64,000 nt of DNA from Nakamurella alba (lineage in GTDB: Bacteria > Actinomycetota > Actinomycetes > Mycobacteriales > Nakamurellaceae): NCBI RefSeq assembly GCF_009707545.1, contig NZ_WLYK01000005.1, forward strand, positions 310,001 through 374,000, given 5' to 3'. The position numbers were made by a program, and so were the translations under genes. The notes beneath the pieces were generated by a model that saw only the letters and a program-made list of their open reading frames with translations, made no database searches and was not told the origin of the DNA. This document shows positions 1-58,348 of this stretch, in pieces (the first letter of the stretch is position 1; each line of letters begins with the position of its first letter).

Positions 1-303
1 GCGCTCGGGCTGTCGGCGACGGTCGCGCCGCTCACCACCACGGTGCTCGCCGCGGCACCGAATCATCTGGCCGGGATCGCGTCGGCGATCAACAACGACG
101 TGGCCCGGATCGCCGGGCTGCTGGCCGTCGCCGTGCTGCCGGGCCTGGCCGGAATCACCCCGGCGGTCTACGCGGACGCGGTGGCGCTGACGTCCGGGTT
201 CCACCGGGCGGTGCTGCTGGCGGGGGCGCTCTGCGCCGCCGGCGGTGTGCTCGCCGCGCTGACGATCCGCCGGACGCCGCTGGAAGCACTCGACGACGAC
301 TGA
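1..303 (+). CDS. MFS exporter, DHA2-type, C-terminal end (partial)
   Basis: Frame 1 is open from the first base to the TGA at 301-303, giving about 100 residues of a protein whose start lies left of the window. The visible part begins [20 protein letters not shown] and continues [13 protein letters not shown], a pattern typical of the 11th-12th helix region of 14-helix DHA2 (EmrB/QacA-like) proton-driven drug exporters. A final hydrophobic helix ([20 protein letters not shown]) precedes a short acidic tail. It would sit in the cytoplasmic membrane. The substrate cannot be inferred. Its last 136 bp overlap the end of a convergent minus-strand frame. Confidence 0.8.
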
Positions 304-44440: not shown

Positions 44441-45355
44441 TGCTTGTGTGGGGTTGTGGATCCGTACGCACAGGGCGCTGCAGACCGACCGCTGCGCACG
44501 ATCGACCTCTCCAACGAGTCGGGGTACTCCGTGCAACAGGTCCGCGACCTCGAGAGGCTCGGGGTGATCCCACCCGCGATTCGAGAGCGAAACGGATACC
44601 GGACATTCACGCGTGTTCACCTCGAGACGCTGAAGCTGTACCGCCGACTCGCCGAGGCCGCCGGCCCGGTCGCGGCCCGGCGGGTGCTGGGAATGGCCCG
44701 TCACGAATCACGCGGTGCCGTCTTCGATGCGGTCGCCCGCCTGCACGTGGTGAATGTCCGGGCACGGGACGAGACCATCGGCGGCCTGTCGGCCATTCGC
44801 CGCATGTCCGCAGAATCCGAGGAGCGAGCGGGCTCCCGCAGCGGCAGCGAACCGGGTGGGGGAGGGGAGGTCGCAGAGGAGCAGATGACCATCACGGAGT
44901 TCGCGGATGCACTGGGCGTGCGTACCTCGACGCTACGGTTCTGGGAGCGGGAGGGCCTGATCCATCCGGAACGGATCGGCAGTCAACGTGCGCGCCTCTA
45001 TCCGCCGGGGGCTGTTGGGGAAGGACGGCTGGTCGCCGCGCTCCGCGCTGCCGGGCAGGGCATCCCCGCGGTCCGGGCCACCATGACCGATCTCGGCCGG
45101 GGCGCGGACATCACGACAGTGGCCGCGCTCCTCGAGCGCCGGCTCGACTTGATCGCCACCAGAACTGCACAGCTGCTCCGACTCGGCGCAGACCTCGTTG
45201 AGCTGTTCGAAGAGATCCAGTCCTCCGGGTCTCCCGGCGGTGCCGAACCCCCGAAGCCATCGGACGACGAGCAGAACTCCGGAGCCGCGTCCGCTGATGT
45301 TTCACGTGAAACGGAGCCGAGCACGGAAGACCGCTCCACGGCACACGCCGAATGA
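44429..45355 (+). CDS. MerR-family regulator with two MerR-type HTH domains
   Basis: 308 aa if it starts at the ATG at 44429; a GTG at 44456 is possible. The first winged helix (~22-75) reads TIDLSNESGYSVQQVRDLER and IPPAIRERNGYRTFTRVHLE. The second (~152-220) reads MTITEFADALGVRTSTLRFW and EREGLIHPERIGSQRARLYP. The helices that usually carry the dimer coiled coil follow, then an acidic Ser/Gly-rich tail containing DVSRET, encoded by a parS site. No effector-binding domain is visible. Known tandem-MerR proteins of actinobacteria act as local regulators. The target is presumably the divergent DUF6194 gene. Confidence 0.8.
   Translation: MTLKCLCGVVDPYAQGAADRPLRTIDLSNESGYSVQQVRDLERLGVIPPAIRERNGYRTFTRVHLETLKLYRRLAEAAGPVAARRVLGMARHESRGAVFDAVARLHVVNVRARDETIGGLSAIRRMSAESEERAGSRSGSEPGGGGEVAEEQMTITEFADALGVRTSTLRFWEREGLIHPERIGSQRARLYPPGAVGEGRLVAALRAAGQGIPAVRATMTDLGRGADITTVAALLERRLDLIATRTAQLLRLGADLVELFEEIQSSGSPGGAEPPKPSDDEQNSGAASADVSRETEPSTEDRSTAHAE
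45298..45313. other. parS: parS site within the 3' end of merR
   Basis: TGTTTCACGTGAAACG, 15 of 16 consensus positions, read in frame as DVSRE(T) near the MerR C-terminus. Confidence 0.92.
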
Positions 45356-45460: not shown

Positions 45461-45512
45461 TTGTCCACACGACTGATCCACAACGGTGGACGGAATGACA
45501 GGCATGTCATTC
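45461..45512 (+). repeat. Composite DnaA-box/palindrome repeat, unit 1
   Basis: TTGTCCACA at 45461, TGATCCACA at 45474 (13 bp later), an inverted GGTGGAC at 45485, then the palindrome GAATGACA-N4-TGTCATTC at 45493-45512. The first box is the perfect actinobacterial DnaA box. Confidence 0.8.
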
Positions 45513-45594
45513 GCACCCAGGATGCCAACCGGTCAACGGATGTCGCTCGATCCGCATCAAGGGCCTCGACCGCCCGTCATGGCTGGTGACAAAG

Positions 45595-45645
45595 TTGTCC
45601 ACAGCCGCTGTCCACACTGGGGATCGAATCACATCCGTGTAGTTC
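45595..45645 (+). repeat. Composite DnaA-box/palindrome repeat, unit 2
   Basis: TTGTCCACA at 45595, CTGTCCACA at 45608 (13 bp), then GAATCACA-N4-TGTAGTTC at 45626-45645. Same spacing as units 1 and 3 although the linker bases differ. Confidence 0.8.
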
Positions 45646-45674
45646 AGGAAGACCGACCCGCAGTGCGTTCCACT

Positions 45675-45725
45675 GTGTCCACATGCGTTGTCCACACGGT
45701 GGACAGAACTACATCCCTGTCATTC
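45675..45725 (+). repeat. Composite DnaA-box/palindrome repeat, unit 3
   Basis: GTGTCCACA at 45675, TTGTCCACA at 45688 (13 bp), inverted GGTGGAC at 45698, then GAACTACA-N4-TGTCATTC at 45706-45725. Confidence 0.8.
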
Positions 45726-46081
45726 GGCCGAGACCTCTTACCGACAGACCGGCGACGCCGTCGATGCCAACAGCTGCCGGAGCAGGCCGCATCCCACCGA
45801 TGGGTACGCCCGTACGTCGAGCACGATGCCGGGGCGGCCAGGGCCACGGGACCGCCCGTCCCGATCACGTCGTGGCCGGCGATTCGCGCAGCACGGCGCC
45901 AGGTCCGGTCGGCGCTCATTCCCTGCGCGGCCACGCCGCTCGACCCGCACAGTCGACGATGGTCGGGAACGAGACGGGAGCGACAGTCGGGACCGAGACG
46001 GCGGCGCCCCACCGACCGAGAGGAGGGTCGACGGTGGGATTGAGTAAGCGGCGACCATGATCGAGACCGTCCTCGACTGTG
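45726..46081. other. Intergenic stretch between the box array and the 119-bp repeat
   Basis: No credible gene. It holds a short run of GGGA(A/C)CGAGACGG repeats near 45963-46000. Frames on both strands are Arg/Thr-rich shadows. Confidence 0.45.
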
Positions 46082-46319
46082 CCGGGCGCGTGATCCCGCC
46101 CGATGACCGCACGTTGGTCCGTCGGACGGTCGCGGAGGGTGGTCGCGGGAGCGACGCACCGGCCGGTCACCCGCCGCAATCACATCTGCCGCCGTGGGAA
46201 CCGGGCGCGTGATCCCGCCCGATGACCGCATGTTGGTCGGACAGACGGTCGCGGAGGGTGGTCGCGGGAGTAACGCACCGGCCGGCCACCCGCCGCAATC
46301 ACATCAGCCGCCATGGGAA
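46082..46319 (+). repeat. 119-bp tandem duplication
   Basis: 46082-46200 and 46201-46319 are nearly identical (both begin CCGGGCGCGTGATCCCGCCC and end CCG(T/A)GGGAA). A third copy begins at 46320 but stops after ~8 bp. It lies downstream of rsmG, outside any gene. Confidence 0.9.
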
Positions 46320-51107: not shown

Positions 51108-51140
51108 TTGTCCACTCCCTGTGGACAACTCTGTGGACAG
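51108..51140. promoter_or_regulatory. DnaA boxes upstream of dnaA
   Basis: TTGTCCACT (51108), then inverted TGTGGACAA (51120) and TGTGGACAG (51132). The first two form an inverted pair. They lie 39-71 bp before the start codon and suggest DnaA autoregulation; they may also be part of the origin. Confidence 0.8.
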
Positions 51141-51178: not shown

Positions 51179-52858
51179 GTGGCCGATGAAGTCCAGGAGC
51201 TGGTGCACCTCTGGCGCGGGGTCGTCGCCGACCTGTCCGCGGACCTGTCCCCGCAGCAGCGCGCATGGCTCTCGATCACCGAGCTCGCTGCCCTGTTCGG
51301 CAACACCGCCCTGCTCGCCGCTCCGTCCTCCTACGCCCGCGAATCGATCGAGCGCACGCTCCGGCAGCCCATCTCGGCGGCCCTCGCCGCCCGGATCGGC
51401 CACACCGTCTCCGTCGCGGTGACCGTGACCGAGCCGACCGCGGCGGCGACCGCCGAGTCCCACCCCGTCGACGGCGGTTCGAACGGCCGCCCGACGATCG
51501 GCAGCTCCGGCCAGGCCGCAACCTACCCGGCCGAGGTCGGCCCGGCGGTCGGCCCGATCCACCCCCTGCCGGAGGTGGCCCGACCCGGATCCGGCTTCGT
51601 CCCCGTGCAGGCCGGACCTCCCTCGGATCTGCCCGCGGGCCCGACCCACAGCGCCTTCACCGCCGGGATGCCCGAGCCGACATCCCTTGCGGGGCAGATG
51701 ATCCAGGACGGCGACGAAGCGGACGAGGACGACGAGGACGACGAGGCCGCGCGTCTGGCGACGGTCTCGGAGATCTGGCCGGCAGCGGCCTTGCGCCGGG
51801 ACACCCCGCCGGCCACCCCCTCCCAGACCCGGCTGAACGAGAAGTACCACTTCGAGACGTTCGTCATCGGCTCGTCCAACCGGTTCGCGCACGCCGCTGC
51901 GGTCGCGGTCGCCGAAGCACCGGCCCAGGCGTACAACCCGCTGTTCATCTGGGGCGACTCCGGGCTGGGGAAGACCCACCTGCTGCACGGGATCGGGCAC
52001 TACGCCCAGCGGCTCTTCCCGGGGATCAAGGTGCGGTACGTCTCCAGCGAGGAGTTCACCAACGACTTCATCAACTCGCTCCGGGACGACCGCAAGGTCG
52101 CGTTCCAGCGCAGGTACCGCGATGTCGACGTCCTGCTGGTCGACGACATCCAGTTCCTCGAGGGCAAGGAGGGCACCCAGGAGGAGTTCTTCCACACCTT
52201 CAACACCCTCTACAACGCCAACAAGCAGATCGTCATCACCTCCGACCGCGCACCGAAGCGGCTGGAGACCCTGGAGGACCGGCTGCGCACCCGGTTCGAG
52301 TGGGGCCTGACCACCGACATCCAGCCACCTGAGCTGGAGACCCGGATCGCGATCCTGCGGAAGAAGGCCGCGCTCGACCACCTCGACGTCAGCGACGACG
52401 TCATGGAGTTCATCGCGTCCCGGATCGAGCGGAACATCCGCGAGCTCGAGGGTGCGCTGATCCGGGTCACCGCGTTCGCCTCGCTCAACCGCCAGCCGGT
52501 CGACCTCTCGCTGGCCCAGGTGGTGCTGCGCGACCTCATCCGGGACGCCGCGGCCACCGACATCGATGCCGCCACGATCATGGCCGTGACCAGCGAGTTC
52601 TTCGAGGTGTCGATGGACGAGCTGTGCGGGCCGATGAAGACCCGCGGGGTGGTGACGGCGCGGCAGATCGCCATGTACCTGTGCCGCGAGCTCACCGACC
52701 TGACCCTGCCCAAGATCGGCCAGACCTTCGGCGGCCGTGACCACACCACCGTCATGCACGCGGCGAAGAAGATCCGCGGCGAGATGACCAACAAGCAGCA
52801 GACCTACGACCAGGTGCAGGAACTGACCTCCCGCATCAGGGACCGCGCCCGCCGCTGA
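51179..52858 (+). CDS. dnaA: Chromosomal replication initiator DnaA
   Basis: 559 aa from the GTG at 51179. Domain I is at ~1-85, followed by a long acidic/Pro-rich domain II (to ~215, including an [12 protein letters not shown] run). Domain III is an AAA+ ATPase: Walker [16 protein letters not shown] (~257), Walker [16 protein letters not shown] (~317). Domain IV recognises the boxes: [20 protein letters not shown] and [12 protein letters not shown] near the end. DnaA-ATP opens oriC and is a transcription factor at its boxes. It diverges from rpmH and is followed by a convergent DM13-protein gene. Confidence 0.98.
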
Positions 52859-53950: not shown

Positions 53951-54687
53951 CGTCCTCCGTCCGACCCGTCGACATCCGGGGAGTTCCAGGAGTGCCCAGG
54001 CCGGGCCCACGCCGCGATCCGGCACCGGACATTCCTCGCGTACCCATCATGAACGCCCGCGCGGTCGAACAGGTTCGATCGACCCGGCCGGCAGCCATCG
54101 GCGTCCGGGTGGGTGGCCGGACACCCGGCCACGCACTGTCAACTCTCCAGTCGTCATCGAGCCGGACCCGACCGGCCACCGGGAGAGCGCGTCACTCTCA
54201 TGATCACTTTCGGCGATCCCTCGACCACTGCTCGACACCATGCACATCATGTGGACAACCCTGTGGACAACTGTGGACAGCGGGTGGACACCTGAGCATC
54301 GACGTCGTCCGTCCCCACACCCGACCGTCGGTCCCCGTCCCGACCCCTGGTCTCCTGCACATCGTGCCACACCGTGCGGCCAGCGCGGACGACCCCGGTC
54401 CCCACAATCCACAGCACCTACTACTACGACTGAATTTCTCTCTCCAAGAGATCTCTCCAGTACCCAGGTGTGTGGATCCGTCCGGCTTCCCGAGATCGAC
54501 CGTCCCACCCAGGGAACCCGGAGCACAGCCCGGACCAGGAGAACCCGGTCCCCGGGGATGACGTGATCGCCTCCTTGGCCGTACGGTGTCAGTCCCGTGT
54601 GCCGATCGGGGTCCGCACCCCGGCCGGTCACGTCCGTGCCCTGCACCGCGGCCACTCCGCGGTGCGAGATCTCGTTTCGGAGGACCG
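53951..54687. other. oriC: Candidate oriC between the DM13 gene and dnaN
   Basis: Holds a run of DnaA boxes on the minus strand: TGTGGACAA (54250), TGTGGACAA (54262), TGTGGACAG (54272), weaker GGTGGACAC (54283), CAATCCACA (54405) and TGTGGATCC (54471). A locally less GC-rich tract at 54417-54462 (TACTACTACGACTGAATTTC) could be the unwinding element. No credible gene. Its place beside dnaN and its boxes fit the usual actinobacterial origin. Confidence 0.75.
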
Positions 54688-58330: not shown

Positions 58331-58348
58331 TGTGGACAGTGTGGACAA
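58331..58348 (-). promoter_or_regulatory. Two adjacent DnaA boxes after recF
   Basis: TGTGGACAG (58331-58339) and TGTGGACAA (58340-58348), directly adjacent, in the gap before dciA. They are about 4 kb from the oriC candidate and could couple DnaA to dciA-gyrB transcription. Confidence 0.7.

Follow-up and report, generated by a model that had tools for sequence, protein, structure and literature searches.

Three copies of a composite element, each made up of two direct DnaA boxes and a 20-bp palindrome, lie between a merR-like gene and rsmG in Nakamurella alba, close to oriC (45461-45725 in the window, that is, the whole 64,000-nucleotide stretch analysed here). On balance, the element is probably a locus for DnaA control, conserved in actinobacteria and occupied jointly by DnaA and the nucleoid protein NapA; this genome carries three diverged copies of it. 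The basis in this analysis is sequence, class-wide conservation, location, loss at crgA together with triplication near oriC, and the presence of the palindrome before napA. Each unit consists of two direct DnaA boxes, a short spacer containing a weak inverted third box, and the palindrome GAAnnACA-N4-TGTnnTTC. The features are listed below (direct boxes from sequence matches, inverted boxes read from the sequence).

45461..45469, plus strand: unit 1, DnaA box 1, TTGTCCACA
45474..45482, plus strand: unit 1, DnaA box 2, TGATCCACA
45485..45493, minus strand: unit 1, inverted third DnaA-like box, weak
45493..45512, no strand: unit 1, palindrome GAATGACAGGCATGTCATTC, probable NapA site
45595..45603, plus strand: unit 2, DnaA box 1, TTGTCCACA
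45608..45616, plus strand: unit 2, DnaA box 2, CTGTCCACA
45618..45626, minus strand: unit 2, inverted third DnaA-like box TGGGGATCG, weak
45626..45645, no strand: unit 2, palindrome GAATCACATCCGTGTAGTTC, probable NapA site
45675..45683, plus strand: unit 3, DnaA box 1, GTGTCCACA
45688..45696, plus strand: unit 3, DnaA box 2, TTGTCCACA
45698..45706, minus strand: unit 3, inverted third DnaA-like box GGTGGACAG
45706..45725, no strand: unit 3, palindrome GAACTACATCCCTGTCATTC, probable NapA site
51179..52858, plus strand: dnaA gene, presumed ligand (PF00308, E 1.8e-75; PF08299, E 6.4e-28)

The box TTGTCCACA is a listed high-affinity DnaA box of M. tuberculosis and S. coelicolor (PMC4285127). The coordinates that the first-pass annotation had given for boxes and palindromes all hold on re-reading of the window sequence, and so does the geometry it had described: the 13-bp box-to-box spacing was found in 3/3 units, and the distance from box 2 to the palindrome, proposed as 18-19 bp, measured 19, 18 and 18 bp start to start in units 1, 2 and 3. 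Spacing was indeed kept while the linkers diverged; all 12 fixed palindrome positions were intact in the three units, and aligned 31-nt segments of the units were 65-81% identical to the first. An inverted GGTGGAC, as had been noted, was present in units 1 and 3, with GGGGATC at the same place in unit 2. We read this motif as a third, inverted DnaA-like box, weak in the window (6-7 of 9 positions by our own count); in relatives its best score reached at least 7/9 in 73 of 77 copies. All three window units scored with the composite sequence models R1 and R2.

Neither the palindrome nor the 13-bp box pair appeared in 300 dinucleotide shuffles of the window or in 3000 of the merR-rsmG gap; the patterns used had been fitted to the finding, so a better test comes from the copies that other genomes carry independently. 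In the 6.05-Mb genome the strict palindrome GAAYNACANNNNTGTNRTTC occurred 4 times, 3 of them in these units (reversed-palindrome control, 0 matches). Across the genus there were about 2 per genome, one in the composite and one in one other place (reversed control, 0).

With the window region as query, blastn matched six congeners, with one unit apiece, at a different genomic place than in the window: between crgA (PF06781) and a putative Rv0010c-like PH-domain gene, a call that rests on position and C-terminus rather than on a domain match. The check proposed at first pass, alignment of the merR-rsmG gap in relatives, would therefore mislead; relatives do carry the element, at crgA. A first sequence-only model, built from nine copies, detected the composite in 17/17 genomes of the genus and in 199 of 299 genomes of the order, mostly as one copy each. 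A broader model from 28 copies detected it in 189 of 297 class genomes, down to genomes of 1.3 Mb, in which it often lies about 10 kb from the contig end. A rigid pattern (gap fixed at 10, both boxes fixed, 3 mismatches) gave no match in the genus, the window genome included. The usual site in relatives is just past the 3' end of crgA, which lay at most 120 bp from the composite in 76 of 80 named, mostly mycobacterial loci; the remaining four loci are truncated at the locus end. Among 77 copies, selected via the models and not via the palindrome pattern (some bias remains), the box spacing was 13 bp in 69 and 12 bp in 8, and the gap to the palindrome was 7-9 nt in all 77. Tandem units also arose in two other genomes (G082 and G267), and extra copies located away from crgA were found in G267 and G230. 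One locus of G267 (L394, G267:C1:4565595-4565700) has a tandem of two composite units that overlap; its 17 kb gave no crgA, rsmG or dnaA match, and the same genome has a normal copy at crgA as well.

In the window genome, crgA and dnaA share a contig and lie about 304 kb apart, the next gene (PH) seems to start at or overlap the crgA stop without a gap, and no composite is left at that locus. The three diverged copies lie between the merR-like gene and rsmG, about 7-9 kb from the dnaA-dnaN gap, in agreement with the roughly 9 kb from oriC claimed earlier. This departure from crgA, with multiplication near oriC, argues for action on DnaA and not on crgA or its neighbour. An oriC is marked by a large cluster of DnaA boxes and an AT-rich unwinding element beside dnaA/dnaN; each repeat unit has only two or three boxes, and the dnaA-dnaN gap has a DnaA box pair of its own at 54250/54262. 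The two boxes of that gap (54250-54270) are inverted and 12 bp apart; further inverted DnaA boxes lie at 51120, directly upstream of dnaA, and at 58340-58348, upstream of the gyrB region. The merR-rsmG gap also contains a tandem repeat of about 110-120 bp (GTGATCCCGCCCGATGACCGC...), at 46079-46310 on the right-hand side of the DnaA units; a scan of the gap for sigma-70 promoters and terminators, the signal types covered, found nothing. A parS-like GTTTCACGTGAAAC lies at 45300-45315 within the 3' part of the merR-like gene, and, to judge by translations such as MFHVKH and VSRET, there may be several more between parA and rsmG.

Judged by gene order, distance and the reported letters, the mycobacterial form of the composite is the Rv0010c-Rv0011c site of Hicks et al. 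2020 (PMC7738170). The two have in common the mycobacterial gene neighbourhood, DnaA boxes and a palindrome 65 bp upstream of Rv0010c that starts with GAATC; with the window units the site shares paired DnaA boxes and a palindrome at fixed spacing, whereas it lies between crgA and the PH-domain gene and the window copies lie between the merR-like gene and rsmG. Rv0010c-Rv0011c (crgA) is among five regions to which M. tuberculosis DnaA binds in vitro, and DnaA occupies the homologues of all five in M. smegmatis cells (PMC7738170). The Rv0010c-Rv0011c region is a target of convergent clinical mutations and of 22 independent IS6110 insertions, nearly all within the small palindrome and with insertion at GAATC (PMC7738170), the letters that open the palindrome of the composite. 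Reconstructed mutants have longer cells and look similar to dnaA mutants, which the authors in turn liken to hypomorphic alleles; in the M. tuberculosis dnaA mutants the initiation rate and the expression of Rv0010c and crgA were unchanged (PMC7738170). Hicks et al. described a DnaA-only site, known from mycobacteria only, with the palindrome taken as two DnaA-like boxes; here there are three copies off crgA, and we read the palindrome as a separate, class-wide site of NapA type. A separate study reported an ATCAC-spacer-GTGAT site in the Rv0010c 5' region (PMC11205783).

The second regular place of the palindrome in the genus is upstream of a gene for a small HTH protein (Pfam DUF3263). In the order and class, a palindrome with at least 10 of the 12 positions preceded DUF3263 in 53 of 70 loci (26 perfect), against 0.1/70 in the shuffled control; this count omits 20 further loci where the gene motif was not detected. 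No DnaA box was found within 60 bp of any of the 48 strict matches at napA loci, with both strands read. The palindrome was absent upstream of DUF3263 in the tested loci of some lineages (f36, f31 and f32); in f36 the composite nevertheless retains it. With PDB 9n2n, which is M. tuberculosis NapA (Rv0430) bound to a 20-mer DNA, the DUF3263 protein encoded in the window genome shares an alignment of 83 residues (E 1.1e-36). It passes Pfam PF11662 (123.8 bits vs. a cut-off of 22.3) and falls just under the cut-off of the NCBIfam NapA equivalog NF053843 (152.8 vs. 160 bits, E 2.9e-45); as a close relative slightly below this mycobacterial cut-off, it is called NapA-like. The structure model had a pLDDT of 77 and the fold comparison was weak (best Z 4.6), so the identification is based on sequence. 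Co-occurrence with the element is uninformative for DUF3263, which nearly every genome of the class has (293 of 297). M. tuberculosis NapA has been described differently, as an AT-preferring coating protein (PMC7177045), and the open-licence literature searched held no record of NapA binding to this palindrome or of a specific 20-bp palindrome for NapA. The simplest reading is that NapA probably binds the palindrome and controls its own gene. The second dimeric factor postulated at first pass is thus supported, short of proof, by the recurrence of the palindrome upstream of the DUF3263/NapA gene.

E. coli controls DnaA via datA and DARS, with IHF and Fis: DARS (DnaA-reactivating sequences) favour the release of ADP from DnaA, and datA the hydrolysis of DnaA-ATP in dependence on IHF. 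In the actinobacterial locus, DnaA would bind the two direct boxes, and perhaps also the weak inverted box adjoining the palindrome, while a dimer of NapA would bind the palindrome. Both proteins would form a complex of fixed geometry that adjusts the amount of active DnaA, much as E. coli does through DARS2, aided by IHF and Fis, or through datA, aided by IHF, and the target of control would be DnaA itself rather than the neighbouring genes. DARS1 and DARS2 are likewise small non-coding loci, and have three DnaA boxes; DARS2 has three core boxes plus IHF and Fis sites, and its Fis sites overlap DnaA boxes (PMC10380432). The composite has two direct boxes and a weak inverted third one, an arrangement that appears to differ from the DARS core, and no IHF/Fis site is known in it; the loci are likened by layout, not base by base. 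The datA locus resembles it as a non-coding DnaA-box locus dependent on a nucleoid protein (IHF), but the M. tuberculosis mutant phenotype looks like DnaA function lost, not in excess. Since the M. tuberculosis palindrome mutants resemble hypomorphic-looking dnaA alleles, support of DnaA activity, as by DARS, seems more likely than restraint. The unchanged initiation rate of the dnaA mutants suggests that the output could be coordination with division, not initiation frequency. The DnaA titration or control locus suggested at first pass is supported by the relatives without being proven: the composite is class-wide, and its mycobacterial counterpart binds DnaA (PMC7738170). Several points tell against joint occupation by DnaA and NapA, namely the AT preference of NapA and the silence of the literature searched on palindrome binding, the palindrome missing upstream of DUF3263 in f36, f31 and f32, the box pair kept at crgA without a palindrome in f31, the weak third box in the window, the unchanged initiation rate in M. 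tuberculosis, and the chance that a different regulator binds both the napA upstream region and the composite.

The family f31 is probably Streptomyces. Two of its loci (L398 and L399) keep the 13-bp DnaA box pair beside crgA, where the palindrome is absent and an inverted TTATCCACA DnaA box lies near its place. DnaA-box clusters outside oriC have reportedly been described in Streptomyces by Smulczyk-Krawczyszyn et al. in 2006; the f31 genomes are alike in having boxes outside oriC, a 13-bp pair just past crgA, and the palindrome is absent there. Such boxes without a palindrome would fit a plain DnaA sink, in which the boxes titrate DnaA, the palindrome serves solely to stabilise this, and having three copies near oriC gives a greater capacity. 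The paired high-affinity boxes, the early replication of oriC-proximal copies, the gain in copy number in the window genome and the tandem units in G082 and G267 also fit, but we consider a sink unlikely: two or three boxes per unit are few compared with oriC, titration requires no exact spacing and no conserved palindrome alongside, and the clinical mutations strike the palindrome and look like weakened, not excess, DnaA.

It is somewhat less likely again that the palindrome is bound by another regulator, for example the adjacent MerR-like protein or a protein of the XRE type, which in M. tuberculosis would be HigA2. In vitro and at 8 µM, HigA2 binds an oligonucleotide from the 5' region of Rv0010c (PMC11205783). 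The two-domain MerR-like gene directly adjoins the repeats; its product (44441-45355) is a single chain with two MerR domains, resembling a fused dimer. Three points count against these binders: to our knowledge only the M. tuberculosis group has HigA2, genomes without an adjoining MerR gene also conserve the palindrome at crgA, and the regular second site of the palindrome lies upstream of DUF3263.

Decidedly improbable is a cis-regulatory role, in which DnaA together with the factor at the palindrome would regulate crgA or the PH-domain gene (Rv0010c family) and so link replication with division. In most genomes the composite does lie past crgA and upstream of the PH-like gene, and Rv0010c expression was changed in the higA2 mutant (PMC11205783). 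Against this stand the three copies far from crgA in the window genome, where crgA runs gaplessly into the PH gene, the extra copies away from crgA in G267 and G230, and the constant expression of Rv0010c and crgA in M. tuberculosis dnaA mutants (PMC7738170). For the window genome, a role in controlling crgA or the gene beside it was rejected, the element being absent from that locus.

The remaining explanation, that the palindrome is two more DnaA boxes, as Hicks et al. read it, or else forms an RNA hairpin, is very improbable: mycobacterial ATCACA resembles the end of a DnaA box and unit 1 folds well (z -2.2), but units 2 and 3 fold not clearly better than shuffles, half-site positions 4-5 are complementary in only 79 of 154 pairs, and the 48 palindrome matches at napA loci lack a DnaA box nearby. 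Two boxes are also unlikely because the conserved GAA is foreign to the DnaA box and the base matching its fixed C varies. Folding tests and the terminator scan did not support an RNA hairpin or intrinsic terminator.

The joint DnaA-NapA locus remains the preferred reading. More tentatively, at slightly less than an even chance, NapA/DUF3263 may be a dedicated, sequence-specific cofactor of this class-wide locus; its high-affinity regulon in the genus would then comprise little beyond its own promoter and the locus, and the clinical mutations at the crgA site would break the NapA half, not the DnaA boxes. The DnaA site was already known in mycobacteria; the spread of the composite across the class, its link to NapA and its triplication at a new place appear to be new; none of the three was found in the open-licence literature searched, a scope that most subscription journals lie outside. 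Having a conserved composite and a named candidate partner for it makes actinobacterial DnaA control between replication rounds directly testable, and it would give NapA a specific role and the recurrent clinical M. tuberculosis mutations a new reading. The window genome offers a natural experiment, in which the element left crgA, multiplied and settled near oriC.
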